A stretch of 64,000 nucleotides of DNA, taken from NCBI GenBank assembly GCA_947561715.1, contig OX387202.1:868001-932000 (forward strand), read 5' to 3'. Positions 15,795 through 59,779 of the stretch are shown here, piece by piece. A model generated the notes under the pieces. It ran no database searches. It saw nothing but the letters and a program-made list of their open reading frames with translations, and was not told the DNA's origin. The stretch's first letter is position 1, and the number at the start of each line of letters is the position of its first letter. The DNA comes from Ascidia mentula (taxonomy: Eukaryota > Chordata > Ascidiacea > Phlebobranchia > Ascidiidae). The translations under genes were made by a program, and so were the position numbers.

Positions 15795-18029
<2,235 letters not shown>

Positions 18030-18050
18030 TATTTTTACCTGTAAACAAAA

Positions 18051-19106
18051 CTACTTTTTTGTAAAATTGAACCGACTCAAAATATCTCGATACGGGGATT
18101 TCGACTCATTTTTCAAAATAGGAATTTTAAAAAATTGTTTTACTTTAGGAGATCTTAAGAATAGTGCTTGCACTACTCCATATAAACTTGAATAAACCCA
18201 GTATAAAACTACACCAGAGGGCAGTTGACAAGCGACAGGAAGCAAAACTATCGACAAGCCTCGGACGCTGTAAACCAGGTATTTATAAAAGCCCTGCAAT
18301 GGAGTTTTTCCATCGCCACGGTAAACTTCAATAACAGACAAATTTGCCAAACAAAAAATTACAGGCAGAATAAAATAAGGGTCCGGTGCCAACAAGTTGG
18401 TGAACCACAAACAACCTTCATGCAAAAGTTGGTCAGCAATGGCCAACTTTTCTATGCTGGGTTGAGTTAAGGTTGGTAAGCTCATTGTTAGGTCTCTCAG
18501 TGCAACTGACAATGATACCCACAAAGGTATTTGGACCCAGGGTAATAGAAAGCGACGAAATACACCCGGAACTTTGTGCTTTTCAAAAATATTTTTCTGA
18601 TGACGTTTAATGTTCGATCGATACTGCAAGTTCGCCATCTCATCTGACCATTCATATTCATCTTTTGCTACTTTTACTTCTGCTTTAAGTTCCTTGTCGA
18701 CCTTTTTAAGCAAGGGCATTATTCGTTGGAATTTACCCATACTTTGCAGTTGTACGATCATCAACGGAGTCATGACCAAACTTCTCATTGCAAATGTACA
18801 AATCAAAATCGACAGCCACCAGGGGGATCCAGTGACATCATGAACCGTTGTTAAATATTCTTCAACAGTTTTTATCCAGCTTGTATCAACTAATTCGTGA
18901 TAGATGCTTTCAACTTTGCTTGGTTCTGCATATTTCCCATAATCTGAGCCAACATTTCCACCATAGCACCTTACGGCGGTGTTGGACGGATGGAAAGGAT
19001 TTGTTGATGAAGTTTTGATTAAATTAGCAGCACTTTTATCACAACATGCGATAATGTTATATACATTAAACACTGAAGTTTGTCGGTTGCACAGAATACG
19101 AATCAT
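18051..19106 (-). CDS. COX18: Cytochrome c oxidase assembly protein COX18, mitochondrial
   Basis: A single uninterrupted exon encodes 351 residues (human about 333). It belongs to the OXA1/YidC/Alb3 insertase family. COX18 helps translocate the C-terminal tail of COX2 across the inner mitochondrial membrane. The N-terminal 80 residues are basic and Ser/Asn-rich, consistent with a transit peptide. The first membrane segment is near SPWWLSILICTFAMRSLVM. A charged loop follows (KAEVKVAKDEYEW), then LPWVQIPLWVSLSVALRDL, LLAPDPYFILPVIFCLANL and LPSGVVLYWVYSSLYGV. WFTNLLAPDPYFILP matches COX18 better than OXA1L. The start is the first ATG (MIRILCN) because the frame upstream has only non-ATG codons. 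There is no poly(A) signal before PSMA7. Confidence 0.92.
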   Translation of the reverse strand: MIRILCNRQTSVFNVYNIIACCDKSAANLIKTSSTNPFHPSNTAVRCYGGNVGSDYGKYAEPSKVESIYHELVDTSWIKTVEEYLTTVHDVTGSPWWLSILICTFAMRSLVMTPLMIVQLQSMGKFQRIMPLLKKVDKELKAEVKVAKDEYEWSDEMANLQYRSNIKRHQKNIFEKHKVPGVFRRFLLPWVQIPLWVSLSVALRDLTMSLPTLTQPSIEKLAIADQLLHEGCLWFTNLLAPDPYFILPVIFCLANLSVIEVYRGDGKTPLQGFYKYLVYSVRGLSIVLLPVACQLPSGVVLYWVYSSLYGVVQALFLRSPKVKQFFKIPILKNESKSPYRDILSRFNFTKK

Positions 19107-19393
19107 CACGTCAAGAGATTTTTGCGGCACCCAAGCATCGTTGCATTGTCACTGCAAAAACTTAAGTTCGACCTCATTTAGAATAAATACAATTTGCAAT
19201 TTCATTCACGTTCCTAAGGTTTCATTCATGCGTGACGATTTATCAAATCCATGTTGTCATGATATTTTTAATCCAGGTCTTCACAGTTCAAAACAAAAAT
19301 TGTGAATTTCGACAATTTGCGTGAAACGCGTTTTCTGATCAAATCTAGTTTTACCTCCATTGCAAAAAATCATAAGTGAAAAAGTTGAGAAAC

Positions 19394-23407: not shown

Positions 23408-26400
23408 TTAATGAATTAAATGAGCACCATACAAACCTGGTGATGAAGTTGGTGGCGGTTGTTGAGTGTTTGATGTGGTTAATGAGCTACCTGATGTGTT
23501 TACGTTTGAGTTATTCAGCACACAGTCAATAATTGTAACATCTGGATATGACAAATAAACAAGATTATAAAAAGCATTTACATTTTATATGTGTTTTGAC
23601 ATACTTGCTTGTGGTCCTTGTGGCCTAGCACTTCCAATATCACACTGCTGTTGTTCATTCTGGCAAAAAAAAGTATGTATGGTTAAATCATAAAGCAATA
23701 TATGCCAGTTCTTACAGTAAACTGACAAAGGATAAATTATATCTTACTTGGTTTCGTTGTTTTTTATATTCTACAGGAAAGCTGGCGTCCTTTACTCCGC
23801 CGTTGACTAAGTCCAGTTTAACAACAATTATTTGGTAACCATCGTGTGGGTCCAATTTTAAAACAAGCTGGTGTGTTGCTGTATTGTTTTCGTAAAAATC
23901 GCTTAACTTGAGTCGATTTTTAACAAAGGTAACTCGACCACTTTCATTTTCAAGTGTTAGTGTTGCTTCATTTTGATCCCGTCTAGAAAAACATTATGTA
24001 ATGCGGTTGGTTTCTAACAATATTCAAAGGAAATTTTGTTAAATTAAATACAAGATATTTCTTATTCACTTCTGTGCATTAACATGATGAAATATTGCAC
24101 TTTTCAGTTTGCTAGTGATGTGACAACCAGAAGACGTCAAAACCACTGTACAGATTCTTTGCATTGTTCACCCATTTTTTATTTAGAATTTTGATTAATG
24201 GACTTAACGCGTCTGAATTAAATATCCCCTGTTGATAAGTTTTAGGAGAATAACATATGCATAACAATTATTTTTTGCTTTATTACCTTAAAGGGAAACT
24301 GAATAACTCGTCTAAATTTTGAGGATTTTCCTGGTTAAATTCCAACTTGTCACAAATATATAATTTCCATACTCTTTCAATGCTGTCTAAACTTTCATGT
24401 TTTGGAAATCCACCAAAAAACTGTTTAGTTTTTGACCAACCCCAAAAATTGGCAATTGATGTTCGAAACCTGAATAAATTACATTAGATCCGGTGTTGTT
24501 TATTGTATTTTCATCGGCAAATTACATTAGATTTACAAAAATTCTTATCTACAGTATTTATTAATTGTAGGCCGCTTGTTTGTAGGCAAGTGTACAAAAA
24601 AAAAATTAATATTAATTATATATATAGTAAGCCACATATAAATGTTTAAGGCCAAGTTAGGAGCCTTACAATGATAATTGTAAACAAATCTGTCCTCCAA
24701 AGATATGGTGATAACTGTGCGTAACTAAACTTATCCGTACATTAGAGTCGGTTAATAGTGAATTTTATTCACAAACAGAGCTATAGAAATAATGTTGGTG
24801 TAACATTAAAATATGTACGCTGACTTCCATAGTAAACTGCACAAACGGTAGGTTAAAAGAGTTGACTTACCATCAAGTAAATACGGTGATACAAATATAA
24901 TTGGGATACAAGGAATTTTTTTTTCACATAACTATTGACTATCATACACTTAAAAAGTGTTTTTGGAACAAGAATGACGTCAAACAAAACAGACAGAGAA
25001 ATGTTACACTTACCACGTAAAGTGAGTTACTTTAAATGTAATCTTCCCTTCCCCATTGTAGGATAAAGTTTGATAATCTTCCCATGTTTTGCCGTCTTGA
25101 CTTGTTTTAACCTTAAATTTGGGATTATGTCTAATTATACTTCCTAAAAAAACACAACTTAGCCAAAGATATAAACAAACATTTGTTTGGTTCTTCACAC
25201 TCTAAAGTTTCCAAACAACAATGAATTAATATTGAAAGCTATACAAATGTTTACAGGTTTATAAAAAATCCTGGCAACCTGGTACTGCTTTTCACTTACC
25301 ACAACAAATTGTGGAAAACTTTCACACACAAAACATGTTGGTAAAGTGATGGTGACATCTTTGGTGAACTCCAACCCACTTGGTCCACAATACAACAATG
25401 GAGTAATTTCCATCTGTGAAATTAAGTAAATGCAAGTTATTCAAATTTGTTTGCTAGTTATGGTGGACAAAGCTCTTCAAAACAATTTAGTTTAGACACA
25501 AAAAAGTGAAAAAAAATTCTGTTCCTGGAAATTTAAATGTATTGAAATAAAAAGTCAATTATGCTGATTTCTAATGAGAATTGCAACATGAACCACATAC
25601 GCTAGGCTCCTTATTTCCATAGTAGCCTCTTAACCAAATTTTTGCATCTGTATCCAGTGCATTAGGAGGAATATCAACAATACAACCCATCACTTCAAGT
25701 TTGCCACCTTCTACACCAACGAATGTGGATGTTGACTGGATTACTTCATAATCGGTGTGTTTCTGTAAATATTTCAAAAAATTGTTCGACCAAAACTTTT
25801 CTTTCGTTTTTAGTTAAATTTTTTTCAATTATTTCTATTAATGTTGTAAAAATAAAATTTATTTTGACATTTCCTACTGGAGCATTTGTTTAGTAAGAAT
25901 TTAGAGAAAGGTAATATTTTGACATTTTTTGATTAACACAGACTCCATAAATCTACGATAATGCTGAAAGAGTTGCTTGCTACATCCCAAATTGATACAC
26001 ATATATATCAACAGGTTTAGTGCTGACTTATTTCTACCTTCAATCTATTGAAATCCTTATTTGCTTGTCCCCATTCATAAATACACAGTGTATTAATGTT
26101 GTGAACGCATGCAGCCAATGACTCAGCACTTTCATTCGTCAAATCATTGAATAAAACATCAAGAAACCCCATCTAAACAACAAAATAACTCAAAAAAAAA
26201 TAAAAAATTGTCCAGATGCAAATACAATATTTTTGGCTGATTAGAATTTATTCCTTGTAAGCCAGAAACTGCAGCCTCTAACAGTGCTTGGTTTATAATG
26301 TTACACAATGAAAAATGTCTTTATTATGTTTGCTGAATGTATGTATATTTCTTATGTAGCAAGAAGTCTATGATTGATATCAGTTGAGGATTGTAACTGA

Positions 26401-29400
26401 ACACTTCTCATAATTTGATGTTGCTAATGTAAAGACCATGCTTGGTTTCCTCTGGTAAAAAGAGATAAATTTGCTATGTAACTATGTTTATTTTCTATGA
26501 CCACATATTTGTAAATGATAAATGTTGTCTTACAGGATTTTCCAAATCTTTAATGTTCTTTGATAAACTTTCCACACCATGATCACCAATGTTACAACCT
26601 CTAAGATAAAGTTCTCTAATGTTGTGAATGCAATGGGCCAATGCAATTGCTCCACTATCTCCTATCTTGTTACCGGAAAGGTTGAGTTTCTTAAGCTAAA
26701 TAAAATAAGAAACAAATGATAACAACATTGTTGCAGCCATGGATGTGAAATGAAATGTGATAGGCATAGGCTTATCCAGAATTTTTTAAAGGGGGGGGTC
26801 CAATTTTTAGGTGTAAACCAAGGTTAATTGTGGTCGAGAATCGCAAAATACAAACGCCTGGCGCGAGTAGTCACATAAACGGTGGCTTCCTGGCTTGCGC
26901 AATTGTGTAACGCTATGGAACACTCGATGCGAGTTTTAGCGGTAGTACTTTCGCCATAGTCTTATTACCACGACCTTCAAAGAAAGGCTTGAATATATTT
27001 GTAACCAAAAGGGATCAAACGTGGGCTTACGTTGTCAAGAAAACAAACAAATAAAAACTATTTTTCCAAGCAGTAGCCTTATATCCCTCTTTGCACCTAT
27101 GCGAGCGCTAACATTTGTTTTCAACATGCGTAATATTGGCAACGTGTTTAACAACTAAACTAATTGACTTAACGTGACCTCTAAAAAACGACGTTTCGTC
27201 ATTAGACTGACGAAAAATGACACTTATTCCGTAAAAATGCAACATGTTTGGTAACAATGCCAAGTGTTCGGTAACAATGCTCCCTGTTTGGAAACAATGG
27301 CGAATGCAAGCACGATGCGGTTTTCAGGTCAACGTCAAAGATATTTCTGGTTTTCACGCAGATTTTGAAAAAAAAAATACAGTGGCGTTTTCTTAGCTAC
27401 AAACACAGACCAAAATATTTCCCAAAACGGTGCGTCTGGGTTTCACACACTTCAGGACCTTGTAATACATGGAGCAAATTCACATAAATACAAGAAAATT
27501 TGACACATGCAGTTGTGTTGCTAATTTTTTGTTACATTTTGTTTTATTTCATTCTTACAGGTTTGGGCAAATCCTTAATCTTCTCAGAGATGATTTCTAT
27601 GCCATATCCTCCGATCTCACAATCCCTCAGATCAAGTTCTTCAATGTTATGAATGCAAAGAGCCAATGCAGCTGCTCCAATATCCCCTATCTTGTTAAAG
27701 GGGAGATTGAGCTTCCTCATCTAAATGAAATAAGAGAACAGCACATGACAAGAAAAACCTTGGTTAAACGCCATTGGTTAAAAATGAATGTGTCAAAAAA
27801 GAGTGTGTAGTAGCCATTCTGGACAATCAGAAGGCATCCATTGCGGTTATTAAGCTGGACAAATCAATTGTTCACTTCTGTGTGAGAATTGGCTGGTGAT
27901 TTTAGGGGTGCCGACAAGTAAATATGTTTTGTTTCAAGTGTGAAAGACCACAAACGCTTAGAAGATAAGTATTCTATGCCACCTTTCTGAAGCACAGGCC
28001 CCTCTTTCAGGAGTGGGACACGGTTTTGTCAAATGAGTCAGGGGAGAACCCGTAGTTTACCCCCCCCCCCCCCCCCCCCCCGAACGCAAGAGAGTAATGG
28101 TATTCTGGATATGTTTCAAAAATAAAGGTTGATGTGAAGTGTTTTGGTGGCAATTCTTAATGTAAAGAAAAGGTGGGTTTGCAGTCTGTATGAAAATCCA
28201 TAAAAGTTACCATGCACCAAAAAAATACAGAGAATCATTAACCAACACTGTTAGGGAGTGTTTCTTCATATTTTTATATGCCCACAGTAAATAAGCATGA
28301 AAAAAACGACAAAACAACATTTATTGATGCCTGCTGCTTCTTACAGGTTTTAATAAATCTTTGATCTTCTGTGATAGAATTTCTACATCTCCTATGTGAC
28401 AATCACCCAGTCCAAGTTCTTCAATGTTGTGAATGCAATAAGCCAAATCAGCTGCTCCTTTATCTTCTATCTGGTTGCCATAGAGATTGAGTACTTTCAG
28501 CTACATAAAAATTACAAATTTTGTTACAATAAACATAGGCGAAGTAGGTGACTGCCTATCTTAACACAAGTATTAGGGAACAATGATACAAGCTAAGAAA
28601 ATAATTTCTCTGCAAAAAAGGTTTAATAATTTTTGCAACAAGTTTGGTACATATTTTATTCCATTTAAATCTTGCACTTTGCACAAATTTGACAGATTTT
28701 CAAGATTAAATCGCTTACTGAATTTTTCAACAGTTTCATCGCCTTAGATAAATGTCCTGCACCACTGGACAATATGCCGCAATTATTAAGAATAACTTGT
28801 TCAACGTTTCGGATGCAGTATGCAATGTAAACTGCACCATGGTCTTCTACAGTGTTGTCGGCAAGGGTGAGCATCTTCAGCTGAATGAAGTAAGTTGAAA
28901 CAAATTATATATAGGTAACAACTTGGAATGCATACAGGATGAACATAACATGCTTTTAAAATTTGTGCTTATTTTGTGATAGTGTCTTACAAAACGTGCA
29001 CATTTTGGACATGCTTTTCCCATCTAATCATTTTTCATTAAACACAGATCATGAGTGATATTGAATTTTGGGACAGACTAGCTTGACCTTATTAACCATT
29101 AGAAAAATTCGGTATAAAAAACAGAAATGAGAAATTTCGTTTGCAATGTGCAAAAGAAATCTGTCAATTCCGCAGATAAGTATTGGTCTAGTTTTTCATG
29201 GTTGACTCAGTAATTTAAGTCCAGATTACACAAGTATGTTCACAACTTCGAAGCATGGTAAAACTTTGCCATCAGTGGTAACATCCGGTATTGATAGTAA
29301 GTTTAAGTCTGCTTGCACATAGTTGTAGTTAAAGCATTGACGCACACCATGTAATGATCATGCAACCGGCAAAAGTTTATATGAAGCATATTGATATAAA

Positions 29401-32400
29401 CAGAACAAAGATATTATGGTTATAATACATAACCTGCAATGTATCATTCTTCATTCAACATTTCTTTAAACTAAACCATTTGCTTCATTTTGTCTTGTAA
29501 ACTTTTAAATGACACAGCAACTAAATTGAGAATTAAATGGCCAAAAATCAACTTTGTTTTAAACAAATTTAAATTTAACAACATCCTACCGGTTTGCTTC
29601 TCCTTAAAATCACTGGGGTGAGATTCTCGAGGTCGGTCAGAAAGACTGATAACGGGTTAAAACGGATCTCCTCAGGGAGTAAGGAGGACACGGATGAAGT
29701 TATCTCCTCATCGTTCGCTTCATGAGCCCAGCTGCAACATCGAAGTATCGCTTGGTTGGTTGGTTCCCCCATATACGACGATGCGAGATCCTTCAGCAGC
29801 TTCTTCTTCGCTTTCAAATATTCACGTGAACATCCGGGAACTACGGCTTCAATATCGTTGAAAACTGAAGAATCGCAAATTCCGAACGCGATCTTGGCAA
29901 CAACCTCCCATCTAGCATCGGTAAATCGGGTGTATTGTTCCCTGAATTCTTTCAAAGGCATGATCGTCATCAGGTAAACCGCGGAGAAGAATTCTTGCCA
30001 AATGAGTTGTGAAAAATGCCTACGTTTATCTCCGTCCAATATTGTCAACTTTAAGTTTCCCTTCTTTGCAACTGAGGTATTCATAAAAGCATTAACTGTT
30101 GAGTCATTCAATTTTGCGCTTTTGAAATCTTGTACTTTGAATACAACTTTCTTGTTCCGAAACCCGTCCCAGGCCAGTTTTGAAAGTTTGTTCAACTGTG
30201 GATTTTCATTCTTCAGGTGTTCAGTTTGTGAGTACTGAACACAAGTAGATGCCAGAACACGGGTAAGCGAAATATGCTGACTATCATCATCATGATTCAG
30301 CAGATAGTTGACGGTCAGTATGAAATTAACCGGAACGTAACAGTAAGAGAACATATTGGTGTTTTGTTCAAGTTTGTTCTGTACAGAGTCATATCTTGCA
30401 CCGAATATCTGTTGTCCAAGTTCTCTCTGTGAGTTTGGAGTTAAGCCGAGTATCTGAACAATAAACCTTGGTCGATGTGAAGGATGGAGTTTGTAGAATG
30501 GAGCCGGTCGTGACGTGAATATCTTCCGGGAACGTGGAAGCAAATTTCCACTCAATAAATGCCTGAGATAAACTTCTGCTTTGTTTTCTTTATCCAACAG
30601 GGGAGTTGGAGCTTTACTTGAGAATGATTTAAAAGCTGCTTCATTGACTCCGTCGAAAACCAAGAGAACATCTGGATCACCATTGATTGCTTGCATTATG
30701 CCCTGAGCTACCTCTGGGTTGTATTCCCAGCTAAGTAGCATGGCGTGGAGGAGAAACCGAAGGAAAGTCATGCTTGTTTTGAAATTTATATTTCGGATTA
30801 CAATGTAGAAGATGAAGGATATTTTCCCAAACAACTCTCTATGCAAAGCTTGTAAAGCCCATTTTTTGCATGAAGTAGTTTTTCCGATGCCCGCTTGACC
30901 AAGAACGCCAACAATATTTCCATGTTTTTCCACGTACTGGAGTTTTGCTTCCACTTGTTCTCGTTTAAATTTCTGTTCTGCTTCTCTCTGTGCTGTTTGC
31001 TTTGCACGAGTAAACATTTCTTCAGGGCTAATGTCACCGGATGGTCGATCGTAAACTTTAGCCAACTCCTCTCTACGATGGTAATGTCCTTCTGCTTGAA
31101 ACTCGTCATCAATTTGTTGTGGTTTGCTGACTATGGATAGGTTGACTGGTGTGATGTTTCGTTGGATAATTTCTGCAAGTGATGATTCTTCACTGGCGAT
31201 GAATTCCACTTTATCTTTTAAAGTTGACTTCAGTTCTTCGCCTACAATAATATGTTTTTTTTGTAGAACGTGTGAGGTGTTTTGTAGAACAAAAAATGGA
31301 TGCCTACGCATTGGTTTGTGATGTCACAAAGTAAGCAGATGAACCCTTAAATTCATGTTCTTAAACATGAAGCACAGTTAATCCCACGAAACCAAATAAA
31401 AAGTATGACCCAACGAATTTGCATGTGTTGATAAAACAATGGCGAAAATGTTCGTTCTGTTTCACTCAACAATAACTGACGATCAGTAATTGATTATATT
31501 GCATTATGTCCTAATAATATGTTCCTTCTAGAACGGATAAAGTTCCGCCACTTGTCGCTTCATGGTGTTGGGATTCGACAAAACCCAAGTCCATGTTTAT
31601 ACCATCCGATTTGGTAATGCCCACCGTACAAGATAATAGCTTGTCGTTCAAGTTGATGTAGTGCTCTCCCTCGGCGGCAATTTAAAAATCATACAGAGTC
31701 TGTTACGGTGGCTAAGGACAGATATTCCACCAGGAGCGACAACGAAACACTAGACTGGGTGGGCTTCATCGCGAATACATCCAACTCGCTTTTCGCGCAG
31801 CTCATTGAGTACTCGTTGATCAGTGCCATCCTTCAAGCCACAATCTCGAATGTTGACCTCGGCGATGTACGGTTTTTGACAAGAAATGGTCAAACGCATA
31901 ACGACTTCTTACGAAACGATCACGTCACCCGCTTGAAATGATATCGGTTTGCCTCCACCGTCATATAAAGCAATTTCGATGACGTCGACCTCGTCGCACG
32001 CGAACCGGATGTTAAGCCAAACGCGTGTAGCGCACTCGATGCGTTTTGCCGATTTCACCCTCAGCCGGAACGATCTCCAGCAGCGGGCTCATGGTATTAC
32101 CAACAGAGCGCGACTGTACGATGTCTGTGTAGACGAATATCCCCGAGAAATCCTAGGAAACGTCGCATGGATGCAATCTCGTATGCCGGCCTGGTGGCAG
32201 CTCGGTGCGCTTGAAACCAAGCATTTTGGTCGAAAGCGGCACTGCAAATCCTTACGGAATGTGTGCAGAGGAGCGTGTTTCGTCGAACGTAAATAGACCG
32301 TGACCGACCAGGCGCTTGATCTTGAAATCGCATTCGTTGTACCAGAATTCGACCAGTTTCGTAATGACCGGTTTCGAGCGTGTATCGAAACGTGCTTCCA

Positions 32401-35400
32401 CAGTGCGAAATATCAAACCAGCCCTCGAATTCGTCTATATTATCCAATGAGCGTGGGAAGATTATTTCGCTGAGGCCGATCTCCCATTCACCGGGCTCCA
32501 AGGAAATGACCGTCGGCAGATTCGTTGTGAAATTGGACGGGCTATTGTTCGGAAAGTGTTCGACCGAGTTGTTTGACGGAAGGGTCACGTATATCGCGCT
32601 ATTTCTTCATATTTGGGGCCGGTAATATACCCACTGAGCTGGAAAGCAGGGCGGTCCACAGGGTTTGGTAAGGACTCTCCATCGTTAGGTTAAACAAGCT
32701 CGTCACAACCACGGAATATATGATGATACTCTGAAACACGAACACCACCTCTGATCACGGAACGTCCCTGTCGAAAAAGCTCAACGATTCTTCTTGGGTC
32801 CCCTTCTGAAAACTCGTCTATCGATCCAGGAGTTAAACTGCTCGCCATAATGTCACCACATCACCAGGTATTGCTTGACGCTAAATTGAGCGACCGCGAC
32901 CGGGTCCATGGCAATGCTACGATGATGGCTAGGATTGTAACTCGCCACTATTTGCATCACATCGATAAACTTTTGTCGACGCTCGTCAAATAGCGCCACA
33001 CTCGATCTTCCAGCGTTCGATTAAATCGTTCCTCGACCGACGCTTTCGTTTCCTAATCGTATGTGACGTAAAATCGAATTCGACGCCTGGAAAGCCACTT
33101 CTGAAAGATCTCGTTGAAAAACTCACGACCCGCATCGGTTTGTAACAGATCCGGTCGATGTCCGCTGGCTCGCATCACGTGATCGAAAACACGGACAAGA
33201 TTTGAACCCGTTTTTCTTTTAATGCCAACAAACCCAAGCGTGTTTCGTAAAAACATCGATGATGGTTACCAAATAACGCTCACCACGGTTTCGAGATGAC
33301 AGTGATTGCACATCAACCAGATCCATTTGCCATACAGCGTCGATACCCGATACAACAACACGCGAACTGACCGACGTCTGCGTTTCACGCTGTCAACGCT
33401 GACGCCGCCCAAGCTACCAGGATGAGCAGGATTAAGGTAAGCAGCACCTAAATCTCTTGCCGTCGCGTCAATGACTCACGTACAATGTGTGAAGTGGAAG
33501 GGATTGGAGCCGGCGCAGACCTTTTACCCAAAAGCGTCTTGGGCGCGTTCTGGTGATTTAGAGCCACGATAAATTCAGCCTCACCGGTCGGTTGCAAGTT
33601 TCGCGGTTCCCTTTTCCGCAACACACTGTGTATCAGGTCCTCGATATTACTATAAGGGACGCGTTGTCCTTTCAAAACTAATTCGCCCGACGGCAAAAAA
33701 TCAATACCGCTTCCCGAATAAACAAAACTAAAGAATCCGCTTTAACTTCAAGTGTTTTGGGGATCGTCCGGATGACGCGTTGTGCAATCGACTGCTTTCG
33801 ATCGATCAGGTTGTCAGCTGGGCGCTCGGTTATCGTCATCATTATGATTTCATTCGTCTGCTCCTTGCTGAGTAATCGAAAGAGCTGCAGGGCTTGATCA
33901 TAAACCTTCACTTTATTTTCATCAGACCTTATTGCATTTAGGATATTCGACATTTCACGATCATATTCCGTTAAAAACAGCTCCACAGTTGTCACGCATT
34001 GTCTTTAAAACATTGGGATCAACCAGAGCCATTTTTGCACGGATTCCATTAGCAAGGAGCGACTAAACCCGCTTCAATGAGAGGCCCCAGGAGTGCGGAC
34101 AGGAATCCACAGGGTTGAATCAACTTCCGGATCGCCCTGTACGAATTCAATTGTGTCAGGTAGGTTCTGGTACGCAGGATGCCATTGACCATAGTACGAA
34201 ATAATCCGTTCTGGACGGGGCACGATGAGATTTTCCTTTATCATGCGCGCGACAAAACAAGTCTTTCCACTCCCGGTTGGCCCAGAATTAAGGCATGCAA
34301 ACGGGTGCGCCTATTCCATATTAACGCAAAAACGAACAACGCAAATTAAATACTTTCCACCGGTCGTTGCCCGTAACCCGCACACGAATCGGTAATTAAG
34401 CCCAATTATACCAACATGAATTTCAAACGCAATGTCGCAAAACCCACACCGAGATCAGCTTCAAACAGCGATAGGCAAAATAATTTTCACCGAAAGGCAT
34501 AATTTACACATGCGATCAAAAATATTGACGAATTACACTTTTATTGCCACTGAGCGGCGAACATAATTCACGAAATTATTTAACTCACCCGCCTCCACGC
34601 AATCTTTGTAATGATATTATTCATGACGCCATGTAGACATTGTCCGAATGTAGGAAGCAATTCAACCTCCATTAACACGATTTAGCTTTGCAATGGCCGA
34701 GATCAACAAGCTTCGGCACACCGAGACGAAATGTCGATGTAATCGGAAATAAAGCGACAAAACGTCATATTGCCATGCGCTCAGCTAAGTTCACAGAACA
34801 TATTGTCGCAAGCTGCATGTAACATAAGAAACAGGAAATACAACAGGACTTTGGTAAGAAAATTTCTGTTTGATTTTGAGGGGGCGGGGCTTAATTAACA
34901 CCCCTCTGCGATTGTGTATTGCGAGTGACCGGATAATCAAGCCTGTACATTGTGAAACATACATATGGCCCGACATTGGAGGGATCATTAAAATCATGAC
35001 GCATTTAATTTGAGCCATCGTGATGTCATTAAAATCATGACGCGATTTAGACCTTACCCGAATCATACAGGAAGCAATTCAACCGCCATTAAAACGATTT
35101 TGCTTTGCAATGGCCTAGACCAAAACAAGCTTAGGCACACCGAGACGAAAACGCCTAACAACTCGATGGACAAGGGTCAAACCGGGGTCAAGACTACACG
35201 TTGTGAACGTAATAGTTGTTATGATCTGCCTTGGCGTCCTTCCACGCTGCTGAAATGTCGGACTTAAATCCGAACCCAAATGCGTGAAGCGATCTTGGGG
35301 CATTTTGTTAATTTCACCCCAAGCTCTGACAATCTCCAGCAACCAGGCCAATAATCTGCTCCGGCCGCGGCACGATAAGATTTTCCTTTGTTTGACGCGC

Positions 35401-37850
35401 GACTAAACAAATCCTTTCACTCTCAACGTAATCTGATCGATCAGCTGACCGAACAAACGCTTTTCATTCCTGCTTTCAAATCAGCGCCGAACACCTGCAC
35501 ACGATCAGTGCCTACTTGATGATGTGGCAAGTCAAAAAATACGAACAATTACAACTTAATCAATCACAACACCCTAAAATCTCACTGCGAAATTAACTAC
35601 AGAGGTTATAAAAATTCCGCGGTAAATCGAGTGGAATAATTCCGCAGAAGGATGAAATTTCACTCGTATGACGTCAAAAGTGTTAACAGCAGTTTTCCAA
35701 ATCACACAAAGAAATGCTCGTAAATTAGAATTATTGTTCTAGCGACAACCGTGTCGGATTAAAGGGGTCACGACCTTCCTGATGTCATTAAAATTATGCT
35801 ACAGGCAAAACACATTTCCACTGATGTATACAGGAAGCTGTTCACCCGCCGCAAAACGACTTAGCTGAGCAAAGACCCAGGACACCACTGCTGTCACCCA
35901 CCCTCGGCTTACAAAGTTCTTTGTGCTCGGCGATGGATGGAAAAGGGTCAGGCAGGGTAGAAGGCAATAAATAGAATCACAGATTTCTCCCGCGTTAGGG
36001 AGAAGAATATGGAACTCCCAATCGAGACCGAAACAAGATGTAACTGCGTCTTCGTAAGACGATTTGCGATTTAAAATGCACGGATGTGAAAGGAAACATA
36101 TCTTCCCTGTCCCCAAATCGAAAGAGGAAACACAAAGACAGGAAGCAAGAATATTCAAAATGCATTGTGTCACACATTGTTGTGTTTAATGCGCTTCTAT
36201 AGAATATGCCCTCAGGTTTCGTGCAGGTATTCGTGGCCGCTTTGACATCTGCATGATCGTTTTGGTCGTTACATTACATAATATTATAAACAACCCTATA
36301 TGTAGAATAGCACAGTAGCGAACCGCGAATTTATTCTGGAATCTTATTATTATTCATTGCATGAATGTAAACAAATCACTTCTTTCGGGCTAGCGACTTT
36401 TCAGCCCTCACCCATGTAGAATTTGTGACGTACTGTGCAGCCTTTGTATATTCTAGGGTGGCAAGTTACCCATGTGTGACAACACTTTATTCTACCAATG
36501 TTTACTCACATTTTTCCTGTATTTCTAATTGTAGGTTGGATTGTTGTGGTGCTGTATGTTGAACAACGTTGACCTGTTGTTTGATCGTAACTGCGTTGAA
36601 GACTGAACCAGTTGTGTGGATGTGTTGGTCGCCAAGGATAGGGCCTTCTCCTTGGATATTCTGCATGTGACGTGTCAAAAATTCAGGGTTGAAATAGGCA
36701 GCTAGGTGTACTCGATGTGTAGTTGATACAACCAAACATTTCTATCGACAAGTTGCACTAATCACAGACAGAATATTTTGTAACAACAGATTATTCTAGT
36801 TCATGAGAAATAAACAACACATGGATTGGCCTCAAAAGGAAAATTCAACCTCGTCATGCAGTGATTGAAAATACCAGCAGGCCTAGCAACGCTTACCACA
36901 CAGGGGAGTCACCGACTTACAATTTCACGTTGTCCAGATGTCCCTGGAACATCAACTACGTCATGTTGGCTGGTCATTGGTAGAACATCCAACATTGGTT
37001 CTGGGTTTTCTGCACATTTAGGAGCAGTTTGATTCACATCTTCATCTGCATCACTCGATTCCTGACTGGAGCTATGTTGTGATGAGTCATCCGTCGTTTG
37101 TGATGACTAAGCAGAATCACACATTGCAACATTGTAGCAAAATTATATTTTCTAATTGATATCTCTACATTATAACTTACCACTACACGTTGTGCAGATG
37201 TCCCTGGAACATCAACTACGTCATGTTGGCTGGCCGTTGGGAGAACATCCAACATATGTGAGAGATCATCCACATCTCTTGAACTGCCAGCTTGATTGAT
37301 ATATGAATGTTTTAGTTGTATGGAACATGTTAATTTTAATTGCATTAAAATTAACCACACAAAATGTTTATTCCTAGAAACGCTCCACATTCACAAGAAC
37401 AACTATTGCGTGAATGACAAGGGACAATGTGTGTACTTTCCAGCGGTTTAGAACAATTTGTTGTGTTACGCCCCGCTACAAACCTGGTCACGTGACAATA
37501 CAAGCTGTGCCAATGTTACCCGTTCCCCCCTTTTTCTTACGTTTTTCTTGCGTTTTTACTGTTTATGCGTTTGATGCATTATCGTTGACATAACCCTGAG
37601 GAAGTCTCGCCGAATGGCAGACGAAACGTCAAATAAACACTTTAGAAACTAAGTGCCAGAAGAGCTATTCCGATTAATTAAAATTACTGTTTTGTGAACA
37701 TGCATGAAGCTTACGTTATAGCAGTTAAACTATTTCATGTGGACAGAGCAGAGGGATTATATTCACTGAACCAACTCATTTCTAGAGCGCTTATATATTT
37801 ATAAAAGTTGATTCGACGTTACCTGGTTCTTGTGGAGCAGGAGATGACAT
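23408..37850 (-). CDS. NLR protein: NACHT, LRRs, ZU5 and UPA-like region
   Basis: Seventeen exons with matching phases: 37850-37823, 37290-37181, 37106-36921, 36660-36510, 31241-29590, 28880-28719, 28500-28345, 27720-27559, 26695-26534, 26172-26038, 25762-25601, 25413 to about 25296, 25143-25014, 24469-24287, 23982-23748, 23659-23605 and 23541-23408, giving about 1,306 residues. Residues 1-158 are Ser/Asp-rich and hold two copies of a QHDVVDVPGTS motif. The NACHT has Walker A GQAGIGKTT (about 273) and Walker B VLLVFDGVNE (about 350), with the NLR motif HFSQLIWQEFFSAVYL later. Five exons encode 28-residue-type LRRs (for example KKLNLSGNKIGD). ZU5 follows (GVEGGKLEVMG; TKDVTITLPTC), ending in KVTHFTW, then a UPA-like segment and a Ser/Thr/Pro tail. 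NLRs are cytosolic innate sensors. The 25296/25143 junction is uncertain, and the last exon may splice onward. No DEATH, CARD or PYD domain was seen. Confidence 0.8.
25014..25031 (-). other. HF/T site at the ZU5-UPA boundary (copy A)
   Basis: The exon ends with codons for V-T-H-F-T and the first two bases of Trp, completed by the exon at 24469. In PIDD1 the ZU5 domain self-cleaves before Ser in an HFS motif, and CARD8 and NLRP1 cleave at the equivalent F-S bond. Here the position of the nucleophile is Thr (ACG), about residue 1104. Copy B has Ser (TCA). Confidence 0.6.
28060..28081. repeat. Homopolymer of 22 C in an NLR intron
   Basis: An uninterrupted run of C bases lies between LRR exons 27720-27559 and 28500-28345. 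Its length is likely unreliable in the assembly. Confidence 0.8.
31520..31829 (-). pseudogene. Fragment of an F54H12.2-like (putative capsid) gene
   Basis: The frame opens with a Met-Ala start, then an ECAKSELD-like segment and a PTQ motif. This start is shared by proteins annotated as F54H12.2-like in many invertebrates, which accompany Maverick/Polinton or adintovirus-type elements and are thought to be capsid-related. A stop occurs after about 46 codons, and related sequence resumes in a shifted frame down to about 31520. Most of the gene is missing. Family recognition is from memory. Confidence 0.5.
31915..32588 (-). pseudogene. Decayed TLPSN-type protein gene of a virus-like element
   Basis: The frame starts MTLPSNNSVEHFPNNSP and contains GEWEIGLSEIIFPRS. 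This N-terminus is typical of a protein of unknown function, perhaps structural, that sits beside F54H12.2- and F54H12.3-like genes. The ORF is open for 163 residues. The expected C-terminal part, with a VYTDIV-like segment and VDVIEIALYDGGG, continues only in another frame, so at least one frameshift is present. Confidence 0.5.
32640..33440 (-). pseudogene. Retroviral-type integrase (rve) remnant, F54H12.3-like
   Basis: The minus strand shows AVWQMDLVDVQSLS (first catalytic Asp region), then after a frameshift KRKTGSNLVRVFDHV and LLQTDAGREFF (second Asp), then after a stop VEERFNRTL (catalytic Glu). The three acidic positions of the DDE core are therefore recognisable but spread over broken frames. 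The type matches F54H12.3-like integrases of Maverick/Polinton and adintovirus-like elements. Inactive as it stands. Confidence 0.6.
33448..33995 (-). pseudogene. Two overlapping hypothetical frames of the virus-like element
   Basis: 33995-33678 (105 codons) begins MTTVELFLTEYDREM and is mostly helical. 33696-33448 (82 codons) begins MPSGELVLKGQRVPYSNIEDL and contains HSVLRKREP. Together they look like one protein broken by a frameshift. Similar sequences occur next to the integrase and ATPase genes of these elements. Function unknown. Confidence 0.4.
34078..34320 (-). pseudogene. Fragment of a packaging-type ATPase of the virus-like element
   Basis: Minus-strand frame with Walker A GPTGSGKTCFVARMI, then RPERIISYYGQWHPAYQNLP, ending at a stop about 80 codons later. 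This matches the start of the A32/FtsK-like ATPase found beside F54H12.3-like integrases. Only the N-terminal region remains. Confidence 0.55.
34655..35410. repeat. Degenerate direct duplication beside the virus-like element
   Basis: The stretch ggaagcaattcaacc at about 34660 with 80 following bases is repeated near 35068. The part encoding the ATPase around 34195-34280 is echoed at 35345-35430 in degenerate form. This suggests a second, more decayed copy or a tandem duplication of element ends. A weaker echo of the first repeat lies near 35825. Confidence 0.45.
35431..36509. other. Remainder of the large NLR intron
   Basis: No convincing coding exon. Frames such as 35799-36173 minus resemble nothing known to me. 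Confidence 0.4.
37380..37665 (+). mobile_element. Penelope-like retroelement 3' fragment in an NLR intron
   Basis: cattcacaagaacaactattg and the following 50 bases match the minus-strand element at 13330-13630. After an internal deletion comes ccctgaggaagtctcgccga, cgaaacgtc, an aataaa and agtgccagaagagc, a tail shared by several insertions in this window. It lies between NLR exons 1 and 2. Confidence 0.6.
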
Positions 37851-42360: not shown

Positions 42361-45300
42361 GCTGTGATGTGAGTGTCGACTCCAGGAAGAAACATCGTGA
42401 TTGTGTGATGTGAGTGTCGACTCCAGGAAGAAACATCGTGATTGTGTGATGAGAGTGTCGACTCCTGGAAGAAACATCGTGATTGTGTGATGTCAGTGTC
42501 GACTCCAGGAAGAAACATCGTGATTGTGTGATGTGAGTGTCGACTCCAGGAAGAAACATCGTGATTGTGTGATGTGAGTGTCGACTCCAGGAAGAAACAT
42601 CGTGATTGTGTGATGTCAGTGCCGAATCCAGGAAGAAATATCGTGATTGTGTGATGTGAGTGTCGACTCCAGGAAGAAACATCGTGATTGTGTGATGTGA
42701 GTGTCGACTCCAGGAAGAAACATCGTGATTGTGTGATGTGAGTGTCGAATCCTGAAAGAAACATCGTTATTGTGTGATGTAAGTGTCGACTCCTGGAAGA
42801 AACATCGTGATTGTGTGATGTGAGTGTCGACTCCAGGAAGAAACATCGTGATTGTGTGATGTAAGTGTCGACTCCAGGAAGAAACATCGTTATTGTGTGA
42901 TGTAAGTGTCGACTCCTGAAAGAAACATCGTTATTGTGTGATGTAAGTGTCGACTCCTGGAAGAAACATCGTGATTGTGTGATGTGAGTGTCGACTCCAG
43001 GAAGAAACATCGTGATTGTGTGATGTAAGTGTCGACTCCAGGAAGAAACATCGTGATTGTGTGATGTGAGTGTCGACTCCTGAAAGAAACATCGTTATTG
43101 TGTGATGTAAGTGTCGACTCCAGGAAGAAACATCGTGATTGTGTGATGTGAGTGTCGACTCCTGAAAGAAACATCGTTATTGTGTGATGTAAGTGTCGAC
43201 TCCTGAAAGAAACATCGTGATTGTGTGATGTCAGTGCCGAATCCAGGAAGAAACATCGTGATTGTGTGATGTCAGTGTCGACTCCAGGAAGAAACATCGT
43301 GATTGTGTGATGTGAGTGTCGAATCCTGAAAGAAACATCGTTATTGTGTGATGTGAGTGTCGACTCCAGGAGGAAACATCGTGATTGTGTGATGTGAGTG
43401 TCGACTCCTGAAAGAAACATCGTGATTGTGTGATGTCAGTGCCGAATCCAGGAAGAAACATCGTGATTGTGTGATGTAAGTGTCGACTCCAGGAAGAAAC
43501 ATCGTGATTGTGTGATGTGAGTGTCGAATCCTGAAAGAAACATCGTTATTGTGTGATGTGAGTGTCGACTCCAGGAGGAAACATCGTGATTGTGTGATGT
43601 GAGTGTCGACTCCTGAAAGAAACATCGTTATTGTGTGATGTAAGTGTCGACTCCAGGAAGAAACATCGTGATTGTGTGATGTGAGTGTCGAATCCTGAAA
43701 GAAACATCGTTATTGTGTGATGTGAGTGTCGACTCCAGGAAGAAACATCGTGATTGTGTGATGTGAGTGTCGACTCCAGGAGGAAACATCGTGATTGTGT
43801 GATGTGAGTGTCGACTCCTGAAAGAAACATCGTTATTGTGTGATGTAAGTGTCGACTCCAGGAAGAAACATCGTGATTGTGTGATGTGAGTGTCGAATCC
43901 TGAAAGAAACATCGTTATTGTGTGATGTGAGTGTCGACTCCAGGAAGAAACATCGTGATTGTGTGATGTAAGTGTCGACTCCTGAAAGAAACATCGTTAT
44001 TGTGTGATGTCAGTGTCGACTCCAGGAAGAAACATCGTGATTGTGTGATGTGAGTGTCGAATCCTGAAAGAAACATCGTTATTGTGTGATGTGAGTGTCG
44101 ACTCCAGGAGGAAACATCGTGATTGTGTGATGTGAGTGTCGAATCCTGAAAGAAACATCGTTATTGTGTGATGTAAGTGTCGACTCCAGGAAGAAACATC
44201 GTGATTGTGTGATGTGTGTGTCGACTCCTGGAAGAAACATCGTGATTGTGTGATGAGAGTGTCGACTCCAGGAAGAAACATCGTGATTGTGTGATGTCAG
44301 TGTCGACTCCAGGAAGAAACATCGTGATTGTGTGATGTGAGTGTCGACTCCAGGAAGAAACATCGTGATTGTGTGATGTGAGTGTCGACTCCAGGAAGAA
44401 ACATCGTTATTGTGTGATGTGAGTGTCGACTCCAGGAAGAAACATCGTGATTGTGTGATGTCAGTGTCGACTCCAGGAAGAAACATCGTGATTGTGTGAT
44501 GTCAGTGTCGACTCCAGGAAGAAACATCGTGATTGTGTGATGAGAGTGTCGACTCCAGGAAGAAACATCGTGATTGTGTGATGTCAGTGTCGACTCCAGG
44601 AAGAAACATCGTTATTGTGTGATGTGAGTGTCGACTCCAGGAGGAAACATCGTGATTGTGTGATGTGAGTGTCGAATCCTGAAAGAAACATCGTTATTGT
44701 GTGATGTGAGTGTCGACTCCAGGAGGAAACATCGTGATTGTGTGATGTGAGTGTCGAATCCTGAAAGAAACATCGTTATTGTGTGATGTAAGTGTCGACT
44801 CCAGGAAGAAACATCGTGATTGTGTGATGTGTGTGTCGACTCCTGGAAGAAACATCGTGATTGTGTGATGAGAGTGTCGACTCCAGGAAGAAACATCGTG
44901 ATTGTGTGATGTCAGTGTCGACTCCAGGAAGAAACATCGTGATTGTGTGATGTCAGTGTCGACTCCAGGAAGAAACATCGTGATTGTGTGATGAGAGTGT
45001 CGACTCCTGGAAGAAACATCGTGATTGTGTGATGAGAGTGTCGACTCCTGGAAGAAACATCGTGATTGTGTGATGTCAGTGTCGACTCCAGGAAGAAACA
45101 TCGTGATTGTGTGATGTAAGTGTCGACTCCGGGAAGAAACATCGTGATTGTGTGATGTGAGTGTCGACTCCAGGAAGAAACATCGTGATTGTGTGATGTA
45201 AGTGTCGACTCCGGGAAGAAACATCGTGATTGTGTGATGTAAGTGTCGACTCCTGGAAGAAACATCGTGATTGTGTGATGTAAGTGTCGACTCCGGGAAG

Positions 45301-45549
45301 AAACATCGTGATTGTGTGATGTGAGTGTCGACTCCTGGAAGAAACATCGTGATTGTGTGATGTGAGTGTCGAATCCAGGAAGAAACATCGTGATTGTGTG
45401 ATGTGAGTGTCGACTCCAGGAAGAAACATCGTGATTGTGTGATGTGAGTGTCGAATCCTGGAAGAAACATCGTGATTGTGTGATGTGAGTGTCGACTCCT
45501 GAAAGAAACATCGTTATTGTGTGATGTAAGTGTCGACTCCTGGAAGAAA
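42361..45549. repeat. 41-bp minisatellite array, about 78 copies (3.2 kb)
   Basis: The unit is gtgtcgactccaggaagaaa followed by catcgtgattgtgtgatgtga, with point variants. 41 is not a multiple of three, and the unit has no stop in any minus-strand frame, so long overlapping open frames (up to 293 codons) run through it with a 41-residue period. These are not called as genes. Higher-order copies occur: the blocks at 43997-44281 and 44612-44896 are offset by 615 bp (15 units), and other blocks by 205 bp (5 units). Confidence 0.95.
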
Positions 45550-56159: not shown

Positions 56160-59100
56160 TTCATCAGAATGACCTCAAACACGGACCTTTATTACTATTT
56201 ATTTTTTTGCCGGTGACGTCACGTCCAATCAGGTGCGAAACCACTTTCCGCTCCCTAGAATTTTTTTTAAATCTCTGTATCTGTCAAGAATTGCGTGCTG
56301 AACAGCGTGAAAGTAATAAAAATCGGTAGAGATATCACGTATTCCATTAGAATGACCTCAAACATGGCCTTTTAACGTTTTGCGCTTTACCGGTGACGTC
56401 ACTTTCAATCAAGTGCCAAACCACTTTCAGCTTCCTAGAATTTTTTTATAATCTCAGTATTTGTCAAGAATTGCGTGCTGAACAGCGTGAAAGTAATAAA
56501 AATTGGTAGAGATATCACGTATTCCATCAGAATGACCTTCAAACAGGGCCTTTTTACGTTTTGCGCTTTACTGGTGACGTCACTTTCAATCAAGTGCGAA
56601 ACCACTTTCCGCTCCCTAGAATTTTTTTTAAATCTCAGTATTTGTCAAGAATTGCGTGCTGAACAGCGTGAAAGTAACAAAAATTGGTAGAGATATCACG
56701 TATTCCATCAGAATGACCTCAAACAGGGCCTTTTAACGTTTTGCGCTTTACTGGTGACGTCACTTTCAATCAAGTGCCAAACCACTTTCCGCTCCCTAGA
56801 ATTTTTTTTAAATCTCTGTATCTGTAAAGAATTGCGTGCTGAACAGCGTGAAAGTAATAAAAATTGGTAGAGATATCACGTATTCCATCAGAATGACCTC
56901 AAACAGGGCCTTTTAACGTTTTGCGCTTTACCGGTGACGTCACTTTCAATCAAGTGCCAAACCACTTTCCGCTCCCTAGAATTTTTTTTAAATCTCAGTA
57001 TTTGTCAAGAATTGCGTGCTGAACAGCGTGAAAGTAATAAAAATTGGCAGAGATATCACGTATTCCATCAGAATGACCTCAAACAGGGCCTTTTAACGTT
57101 TTGCGCTTTACTGGTGACGTCACTTTCAATCAAGTGCCAAACCACTTTCCGCTCCCTAGAATTTTTTTTAAATCTCAGTATTTGTCAAGAATTGCGTGCT
57201 GAACAGCGTGAAAGTAATAAAAATTGGCAGAGATATCACGTATTCCATCAGAATGACCTCAAACAGGGCCTTTTAACGTTTTGCGCTTTACTGGTGACGT
57301 CACTTTCAATCAAGTGCCAAACCACTTTCCGCTCCCTAGAATTTTTTTTAAATCTCAGTATCTGTCAAGAATTGCGTGCTGAACAGCGTGAAAGTAATAA
57401 AAATTGGTAGAGATATCACGTATTCCATCAGAATGACCTCAAACATGGCCTTTTAACGTTTTGCGCTTTACTGGTGACGTCACTTTCAATCAAGTGCCAA
57501 ACCACTTTCCGCTTTCTAGAATTTATTTTAAATCTCTGTATTTGTCAAGAATTGCGTGCTGAACAGCGTGAAAGTAATAAAAATTGGTAGAGATATCACG
57601 TATTCCATCAGAATGACCTCAAACAGGGCCTTTTAACGTTTTGCGCTTTACTGGTGACGTCACTTTCAATCAAGTGCCAAACCACTTTCCGCTTTCTAGA
57701 ATTTATTTTAAATCTCTGTATTTGTCAAGAATTGCGTGCTGAACAGCGTGAAAGTAATAAAAATTGGCAGAGATATCACGTATTCCATCAGAATGACCTC
57801 AAACAGGGCCTTTTAACGTTTTGCGCTTTACTGGTGACGTCACTTTCAATCAAGTGCGAAACCACTTTCCGCTTCCTAGAATTTTTTTTAAATCTCAGTA
57901 TTTGTCAAGAATTGCGTGCTGAACAGCGTGAAAGTAATAAAAATTGGCAGAGATATCACGTATTCCATCAGAATGACCTCAAACATGGCCTTTTAACGTT
58001 TTGCGCTTTACTGGTGACGTCACTTTCAATCAAGTGCCAAACCACTTTCCGCTCCCTAGAATTTTTTTTAAATCTCAGTATCTGTCAAGAATTGCGTGCT
58101 GAACAGCGTGAAAGTAATAAAAATTGGTAGAGATATCACGTATTCCATCAGAATGACCTCAAACAGGGCCTTTTAACGTTTTGCACTTTACTGGTGACGT
58201 CACTTTCAATCAAGTGCCAAACCACTTTCCGCTTTCTAGAATTTATTTTAAATCTCTGTATTTGTCAAGAATTGCGTGCTGAACAGCGTGAAAGTAATAA
58301 AAATTGGCAGAGATATCACGTATTCCATCAGAATGACCTCAAACAGGGCCTTTTAACGTTTTGCGCTTTACTGGTGACGTCACTTTCAATCAAGTGCCAA
58401 ACCACTTTCCGCTTTCTAGAATTTATTTTAAATCTCTGTATTTGTCAAGAATTGCGTGCTGAACAGCGTGAAAGTAATAAAAATTGGCAGAGATATCACG
58501 TATTCCATCAGAATGACCTCAAACATGGCCTTTTAACGTTTTGCGCTTTACCGGTGACGTCACTTTCAATCAAGTGCCAAACCACTTTCCGCTTCCTAGA
58601 ATTTTTTTTAAATCTCAGTATCTGTCAAGAATTGCGTGCTGAACAGCGTGAAAGTAATAAAAATTGGTAGAGATATCACGTATTCCATCAGAATGACCTC
58701 AAACAGGGCCTTTTTACGTTTTGCGCTTTACCGGTGACGTCACTTTCAATCAAGTGCGAAACCACTTTCCGCTCCCTAGAATTTTTTTTAAATCTCAGTA
58801 TCTGTCAAGAATTGCGTGCTGAACAGCGTGAAAGTAATAAAAATTGGTAGAGATATCACGTATTCCATCAGAATGACCTCAAACAGGGCCTTTTAACGTT
58901 TTGCACTTTACTGGTGACGTCACTTTCAATCAAGTGCCAAACCACTTTCCGCTTTCTAGAATTTATTTTAAATCTCTGTATTTGTCAAGAATTGCGTGCT
59001 GAACAGCGTGAAAGTAATAAAAATTGGCAGAGATATCACGTATTCCATCAGAATGACCTCAAACAGGGCCTTTTAACGTTTTGCGCTTTACTGGTGACGT

Positions 59101-59779
59101 CACTTTCAATCAAGTGCCAAACCACTTTCCGCTCCCTAGAATTTTTTTTAAATCTCAGTATCTGTCAAGAATTGCGTGCTGAACAGCGTGAAAGTAATAA
59201 AAATTGGTAGAGATATCACGTATTCCATCAGAATGACCTCAAACAGGGCCTTTTAACGTTTTGCGCTTTACTGGTGACGTCACTTTCAATCAAGTGCCAA
59301 ACCACTTTCCGCTTTCTAGAATTTATTTTAAATCTCTGTATTTGTCAAGAATTGCGTGCTGAACAGCGTGAAAGTAATAAAAATTGGTAGAGATATCACG
59401 TATTCCATCAGAATGACCTCAAACAGGGCCTTTTTACGTTTTGCGCTTTACCGGTGACGTCACTTTCAATCAAGTGCGAAACCACTTTCCGCTCCCTAGA
59501 ATTTTTTTTAAATCTCTGTATCTGTCAAGAATTGCGTGAAAGTAATAAAAATTGGTAGAGATATCACGTATTCCATCAGAATGACCTCAAACAGGGCCTT
59601 TTAACGTTTTTCGTCTTTGCCGGTGACGTCACTTTCAATCAAGTGCCAAACCACTTTCCGCTCCCTAGAATTTATTTTAAATCTCTGTATTTGTCAAGAA
59701 TTGCGTGCTGAACAGCGTGAAAGTAATAAAAATTGGTAGAGATATCACGTATTCCATCAGAATGACCTCAAACACGAGT
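56160..59779. repeat. 180-bp satellite array, 20 copies, each with a TGACGTCA site
   Basis: The unit starts gaatgacctcaaacagggcc and includes ggtgacgtcactttcaatca, ctagaatttttttt, gaattgcgtgctgaacagcg and gatatcacgtattccatca. Twenty consecutive units of 180 bp are present; the penultimate one has a 12-base deletion and the outer ones are diverged. 180 is a multiple of three, so a 60-residue periodic frame appears on the plus strand; I do not treat it as coding. Two sub-types, ctttctagaatttattt and ctccctagaattttttt, alternate in blocks. Each unit holds one perfect palindromic CRE (TGACGTCA). Confidence 0.95.

Follow-up and report, generated by a model that had tools for sequence, protein, structure and literature searches.

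An apparent NACHT-fronted member of an ascidian LRR-ZU5 gene family with a predicted PIDD1-like cleavage site

Introduction

What self-cleaving ZU5-UPA sensors do is known from the vertebrate proteins NLRP1, CARD8, and PIDD1. Work on these proteins, as far as the available text goes, has placed the cut at an HF/S motif in PIDD1 and at SF/S in NLRP1 and CARD8, and has shown that the human self-cleaving proteins tested use Ser, the chemistry admitting Ser, Thr, or Cys (PMC3210808). Once freed, the C-terminal piece of NLRP1 and CARD8 is described as oligomerising via its UPA and CARD (PMC7794386). Available excerpts of other work report TRADD-N fused to ZU5-UPA (PMC8195603), mention NACHT-ZU5 for early-diverging animals (PMC12909245), and place ZU5 with NACHT in cnidarians (PMC8260672). 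The NLRs of ascidians are described, in the part of the source at hand, as NACHT-LRR or NACHT only (PMC11508797), and a literature search for ZU5, NACHT, and tunicate together found no paper among 5.39 million.

The window discussed here is a stretch of 64,000 nucleotides of the Ascidia mentula genome (195.8 Mb in 79 contigs), positions 868001-932000 of contig C70. The same genome has two glycosyl hydrolase family 6 (GH6) loci above cut-off among three matches. Among animals, GH6 is known as a tunicate trait, with which these loci agree.

Anatomy of the Gene

An earlier note on this DNA had proposed a 17-exon NLR gene, and its model held when all three frames were read and each boundary was fixed. 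The gene lies on the minus strand, runs from an ATG at 37850 to a stop ending at 23408, and encodes 1294 amino acids; all of its introns have GT donors (16/16) and AG acceptors (16/16) with phases in register, and none of the 17 exons contains a stop or a frameshift. The domain order is N-terminal exons (E1-E4), NACHT plus winged helix (E5), LRR (E6-E9), cap (E10), ZU5 (E11-E13), UPA position (E14-E15), and tail (E16-E17). The features, all on the minus strand and in window positions, are as follows, each with the evidence that bears on it.

37823..37850, minus: E1, start codon and first 9 codons; ATG (without independent support), GT donor, phase 1 out
37181..37290, minus: E2, Ser/Asp-rich (MLDVLP..SQHDVVDVPGTS), with a near-duplicate in E3; paralogous exons at many C70 NLR loci
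36921..37106, minus: E3, Ser-rich, ending with the MLDVLP..PGTS unit of E2; paralogous exons and splice model
36510..36660, minus: E4, conserved motif G-D-x-N-I-H-T-T-G-P-V; 16 distinct places, 15 on C70 and 1 upstream of a C52 NACHT (L044)
29590..31241, minus: E5, NACHT, winged helix, and post-NACHT region; Pfam, PDB, dN/dS, and a donor site conserved in the related locus L087
28719..28880, minus: E6, LRR exon 1 (two repeats), phase 0-0; Pfam and splice model
28345..28500, minus: E7, LRR exon 2, phase 0-0; Pfam and splice model
27559..27720, minus: E8, LRR exon 3, phase 0-0; Pfam and splice model
26534..26695, minus: E9, LRR exon 4, phase 0-0; Pfam and splice model
26038..26172, minus: E10, degenerate LRR cap exon before ZU5; counterparts in the array unit L012 and in L014
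25601..25762, minus: E11, ZU5 part 1; Pfam ZU5, and 22 family copies with exon and splice sites intact
25300..25413, minus: E12, ZU5 part 2 (TPLLYCGPSGLEFTKDVTITLPTC); Pfam, family copies, and matches to the ZU5 of ZO-1, UNC5B, and ankyrin-2
25014..25111, minus: E13, ZU5 end with VTHF|TW as putative cleavage motif (its T is aa 1092); VTHF[T/S] in 17/17 readable copies
24287..24469, minus: E14, UPA-position exon 1; dN/dS over 7 loci, without a Pfam match
23748..23982, minus: E15, UPA-position exon 2; 11 matches outside the window at ~40% identity, without a Pfam match
23605..23659, minus: E16, short linker exon needed for phase; splice sites and phase
23408..23541, minus: E17 (T2), Asn/Ser/Thr/Pro-rich tail exon and stop; recurs elsewhere in the genome
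53343..55550, minus: copy 2, 5'-truncated, with the end of ZU5 part 1, ZU5b, ZU5c (HFS), UPA1, UPA2, T1, and T2; sequence read

For E13 (ZU5c), a start at IIRHNPKFK was rejected because array units have stops there, and the exon was set to begin in phase 0 at 25111; the queries used for Pfam domains, for the C-terminal genome search, and for the homologue search included the extra residues of the IIRHNPKFK start.

Downstream of the NLR, also on the minus strand (window 16277-19148), lie an Oxa1/COX18-like gene (60KD_IMP, 3.1e-15) and proteasome alpha exons (1.6e-5). The window also carries a 41-bp tandem array of ~78 copies with a strong skew of G over C (42363-45549) and a 180-bp satellite of ~20 copies (56162-59774), the latter directly upstream of truncated copy 2.

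N-Terminal Exons, NACHT, and LRRs

Pfam, run on the protein of the gene, returned NACHT (8.6e-17), NOD2_WH (8.9e-8), and LRR_6 (5.9e-28). The combination by which an NLR is recognised, a NACHT with Walker A and B plus a STAND winged helix, was found in E5, with Walker A (GQAGIGKTT) at aa 273 and Walker B (VLLVFDGVNE) at aa 350, where DGVNE compares with DGVDE in L087. LRR exons follow the NACHT exon in phase, as read from genomic DNA, across a junction with a homologous counterpart in the ZU5 array described below. What had been counted as five LRR exons proved to be four exons of two repeats each and one degenerate cap exon.

In the first 267 amino acids, Pfam recognised no domain above its cut-off. 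Exons E2-E4 recur at many places on C70, in many cases a few kb ahead of a NACHT exon, and no counterparts of them were found in the ZU5 array. The G-D-x-N-I-H-T-T-G-P-V motif stands ahead of NACHT in NLRs of two families, which lie on different chromosomes (E4, window 36510-36660, and L044). An amyloid (RHIM-like) pairing of this motif with the C-terminal tail was considered and rejected: the two look alike by eye (VLGDQNIHTTG / VLNNSNVNTSG), and the profile test was not significant, the E4 profile placing T2 at ranks 63 and 3204 of 3536 scored, shuffles among them.

The intron between E4 and NACHT harbours a Polinton/adintovirus-like relic (window 32097-34310, minus), with fragments that resemble a packaging ATPase of the IVa2 type (3.3e-4) and the core of an integrase (9.6e-5), both under the Pfam cut-off. 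Elsewhere in the genome, dense NACHT exons of another family occur, among the matches listed, at C71:0.68-0.95 and 14.2-15.3 Mb.

One Gene or Two

The best explanation of the locus, to which about an even chance may be given, is one 17-exon NLR gene in which NACHT-LRR leads into a PIDD1-type ZU5, then a stretch standing where UPA would, and then a tail, together forming a poised self-cleaved sensor born of the joining of a NACHT gene and an LRR-ZU5 gene. Its main rival, rather unlikely on present evidence, is a pair of neighbours lying head to tail: a NACHT gene whose 3' exons are lost or elsewhere, and an LRR-ZU5-UPA-like gene without first exons.

Much of what bears on this choice comes from the family to which the ZU5 exons belong. 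The C-terminal protein, searched against its own genome, gave 141 exon matches, with ZU5 in a plus-strand array at C70:2.09-2.64 Mb and at further loci on C70, C52, C71, C1, and C69. Placed by their first ZU5 match, there are ~45 loci, 27 of them in the array, a count that leaves out window copy 2 (which is without ZU5 part 1) and two C69 matches. The order LRR-ZU5-UPA repeats across the array, and most members of the family are, by their exon order, LRR-ZU5-UPA-like, as in PIDD1. An ordinary homologue search (581 candidates) returned none at E up to 10, its database seemingly being without relatives.

Upstream NACHT is the exception in this family. Among the NACHT matches listed (the best 95 of 317 and the best 75 of 399 candidates, with C71 entered in part), only 3 of the 45 ZU5 loci have a same-strand NACHT in the 15 kb upstream of them: C70:786 kb, C1:24.51 Mb, and the window gene itself; at the C1 locus, NACHT and then ZU5c-UPA1 lie on one strand within ~6 kb (C1:24.507-24.513 Mb). 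Considering this rarity, the window gene has the look of an uncommon member of the LRR-ZU5 family with a NACHT in front, probably made by exon shuffling. The same count can of course be turned around: with 42 of the 45 loci lacking such a NACHT among the matches listed, and with NACHT and ZU5 families interleaved on C70, the adjacency in the window could be chance, as the two-gene reading would have it.

The junction itself can be examined by comparison with the array. In the array unit that was read, an exon termed X leads, in phase 0, to LRR exons, the cap exon, and ZU5, and what stands before the LRRs there is X plus sequence of no known kind, not NACHT, a point for two separate genes. Exon X shares homology with the final part of the window NACHT exon (E 2.3e-5, 40% over 65 aa), ends in the same phase, and occurs at 25 places in the plus-strand array C70:2.09-2.64 Mb, besides one weak match. 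In the window, the X-like part is fused to NACHT, and the first LRR exon follows 710 bases on; neither an X exon nor an alternative first exon was found in those 710 bases, and between LRR1 and UPA2, both included, each of the ten exons is whole and has proper splice sites, unlike a decaying fragment. On C2, an NLR cluster has the same LRR exon type ~0.9-1.1 kb behind its NACHT exons. Exon X homology and the C2 arrangement together mark the junction from NACHT end to LRR as old, and this homology to the array argues against two genes.

That the donor of the window NACHT exon is conserved in L087, its closest NACHT relative among the matches listed, counts for one gene. Other loci speak for the rival. 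No LRR exon was found at L087 in the 1.5 kb after the NACHT exon; moreover, many C70 NACHT exons, the closest C70 relatives of the window among them, seem to be followed by X-like exons, not by LRR-ZU5. At 947 kb, LRR and ZU5 exons occur with neither NACHT nor X among the matches listed, so that a missing X exon at a ZU5 locus is no proof of fusion.

At two other ZU5 loci (C70:11.47 and 11.484 Mb), exon X lies in open frames 865 and 952 aa long, which are Q/K-rich and show no NACHT in the part read; at 11.484 Mb, an open Q/K-rich frame of 833 aa, likewise without visible NACHT, was found in the 2.5 kb ahead of exon X.

Taken together, the exon anatomy tips the balance towards the NACHT-LRR and ZU5 exons belonging to one gene. 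The earlier claim that exon phases link them was upheld as regards splicing in register, and a single transcript is what that anatomy suggests.

The ZU5 Domain and Its Putative Cleavage Site

That a ZU5 module is present, as the earlier note had claimed, is clear from Pfam, which matched it in the window gene at 5.5e-5 and 23.8 bits (cut-off 21), at 23.8-24.9 bits across the gene and paralogue tests, and in 12/12 paralogue rows submitted. At the end of the domain, VTHF is invariant in the 17 copies with a complete readable exon (L025 and truncated copy 2 included), and the next residue is Thr in 15 and Ser in the other two (window copy 2 and L017). The residues of the PIDD1-like HF/[S] site are thus kept as H-F-[T/S] in 17/17 copies, a predicted cleavage site; even L025, which has stops in a neighbouring exon, and truncated copy 2 keep Thr or Ser there. 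Since six kinds of codon (ACG, ACC, ACA, ACT, TCA, and AGT) are used at this position, drift by silent change is no explanation for the conservation of the nucleophile.

The ZU5 exons are under purifying selection. Across parts a, b, and c at 15 loci, the median dN/dS is 0.43, with 103/103 usable pairs (dS >0.03, of 105) below 1; part b alone, compared with the window at 16 loci, is weaker, at 0.31 to 2.91.

A second rival would keep the single gene and make its ZU5 a plain, non-cleaving scaffold like that of UNC5, ankyrin, or ZO-1. Its basis is that the PDB sequences matched by the ZU5 profile are ZO-1 (0.0023), UNC5B (0.19), and ankyrin-2 (1.3), and that Thr replaces Ser in 15/17 copies. The invariance of H-F-[T/S] amid neighbouring positions that vary counts against it, as does the report, in the text available, that UNC5B has Leu where cleaving proteins have a buried Phe (PMC3210808), and a scaffold is accordingly quite unlikely. 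Self-cleavage at the end of ZU5 is what the conserved residues would predict. The best PDB matches of the profile were in fact to OAA-type lectins of bacteria, limited to a short segment (1e-6; also NCBIfam, 0.0013), probably a short-motif resemblance.

The UPA Position

Of the ZU5-UPA module proposed earlier, ZU5 stood, and the region behind it occupies the place of UPA without matching it. Pfam left UPA undetected in the window gene and found it in 0/12 paralogue rows, only 2 of which contain the second UPA exon, and a PDB sequence search with the segment returned no UPA protein. Other approaches carried little information: one UPA exon modelled alone reached pLDDT 44, too poor for fold comparison; a genome search for UPA matched nothing at any place and so says nothing of this locus; and a profile comparison with UPA segments of known proteins aligned only the post-cleavage junction with PIDD1 and is insensitive, most known-UPA positive controls having failed. 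As for selection, E14 has a median dN/dS of 0.40 over 7 loci, with 20/20 usable pairs below 1.

The Tail Exon and Signalling Domains

A Ser/Thr/Pro tail on the putative released piece, also proposed earlier, was borne out: E17 is Asn/Ser/Thr/Pro-rich and recurs behind other UPA2 matches, a tail match lying 150-250 bases behind 8 of the 11 outside the window. A search with E16 and E17 gave 32 matches, all on C70, to which the two window copies contribute four; E17 accounts for 30, of which 28 are outside the gene (one of these in window copy 2), and E16 had no match outside the window. Eleven weak tail-exon matches (E 0.0045 to 1.05) occur at C70:3812193-3819949 (minus), nine of them at intervals of 340-341 bases. 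They lie downstream of, and on the same strand as, a ZU5-UPA locus (3.821-3.824 Mb); the single E-values being poor, this array is recognised by its spacing and place. No Pfam domain was found in the tail.

The earlier note saw no DEATH, CARD, or PYD at either end of the protein. For the first two this was extended genome-wide. Of 27 DEATH matches (E up to 0.1), none falls in the first 6.4 Mb of C70, which include the window; of 9 CARD matches (E up to 1), none falls in its first 11.7 Mb; and none of either lies near the ZU5 and tail loci, in searches that read exon by exon and could thus miss domains split by introns. For PYD, the claim was covered by Pfam on the first 267 aa, with nothing above cut-off. 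Elsewhere, at C1:5920150-5920815 (minus), the genome has a CARD followed by a DEATH on one strand, an order that we take to resemble the PIDD1 adaptor CRADD/RAIDD.

Copy 2 breaks off inside ZU5 part 1 and has HFS instead of HFT at the cleavage site. Its dN/dS against the window gene is 1.06, and the flanking non-coding DNA is equally similar between the copies, for which reason copy 2 was rejected as proof that the tail is coding; the case for a coding tail exon rests instead on its recurrence elsewhere. That the window locus is decayed, intact by accident with its expression lost, might be read from truncated copy 2 alongside, the virus-like transposon relic in the large intron, and dN close to dS between the window copies, and is highly improbable given 17 exons free of stops and frameshifts and dN/dS values against other loci, averaged over both lineages, of 0.36 for NACHT (with L087) and 0.24-0.55 for ZU5.

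A Proposed Mechanism and Origin

If the locus is indeed a single self-cleaving NLR gene, its protein would begin with disordered N-terminal exons carrying the short G-D-x-N-I-H-T-T-G-P-V motif. The ZU5 would fold and cut its own chain at F1091|T1092, leaving a C-terminal piece of 203 residues in the hold of the N-terminal part. That piece would then be freed when NACHT-LRR senses a trigger or when its N-terminal partner is lost, and could oligomerise via its UPA-like region and signal via the tail exon, not via a CARD or death domain. Such a gene may have originated by the joining of genes from two C70 families, the large NLR family giving an N-terminal/NACHT gene and a separate, more numerous one giving an LRR-ZU5-UPA-like gene, as the exon anatomy suggests, the putative fusion point being a phase-0 exon junction common to both.

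A bolder version, which must be regarded as a long shot, is a chordate family of self-cleaving sensors that signals via a new, non-death-fold tail exon, one found repeatedly across the LRR-ZU5 array; the ~11 tandem tails at one ZU5 locus would make the freed fragment multivalent and possibly polymerising, and the window gene would couple an NTPase switch to it by exon shuffling.

Were the single-gene reading true, a non-vertebrate chordate, with a NACHT-LRR-ZU5 gene beside dozens of LRR-ZU5 paralogues that keep a hydroxyl nucleophile in every readable copy and have no death-fold domain found near them, would show that the device of cut, hold, and release is older than its CARD output or independent of it. 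The family would further offer a natural set of Thr and Ser nucleophiles for testing the chemistry, and would bring the shuffling of exons between sensor and release modules into direct view.

Comparison with Known Systems

The earlier suggestion of an independent or ancestral NLRP1-like self-cleaving form found no support as worded, considering that NACHT occurs at 3/45 ZU5 loci among the matches listed, that the motif is PIDD1-like, and that NACHT-ZU5 has already been reported, in the available text, for sponges and cnidarians (PMC12909245, PMC8260672). NLRP1 and the window gene, as modelled, do share the layout of NACHT-LRR and then ZU5 with a region in the UPA position, and the NACHT matches NLRP1 structures (7wge, 2.3e-16). 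The best match of NACHT-LRR among PDB sequences is, however, NLRP3 (4.5e-22), the motif is HF[T/S], not the SF/S of NLRP1 and CARD8, and no CARD was found on C70 below 11.7 Mb.

The NACHT-ZU5 proteins of sponges, cnidarians, and ctenophores have the same pair of domains and, compared by description only and as far as the available text goes, are described without LRR, cleavage motif, or tail (PMC12909245, PMC8260672). The ascidian NLRs of PMC11508797 are likewise NACHT-LRR without CARD; they differ in that no ZU5 or FIIND is noted for ascidians in the part of that source available. UNC5, ankyrin, and ZO-1 share the ZU5 sequence, have no NACHT, and are not self-cleaving at that position, UNC5B having the Leu described above.

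The remaining comparison is with PIDD1 (LRR-ZU5-ZU5-UPA-DEATH). It differs from the window gene, which has NACHT in front, one ZU5 and not two, a UPA undetected by sequence, and no DEATH found on C70 below 6.4 Mb. Both have LRR before ZU5, and the HF/S of PIDD1 corresponds to HF/T or HF/S here. Moreover, the stretch after the cut, VTHFTWF..W..K..GG here, aligns at 44% over 25 columns with VTHFSWYWLWYTTK..GG, the target taken as the PIDD1 sequence, and the score against that target is 34.4, compared with at most 19.8 in 40 column shuffles.
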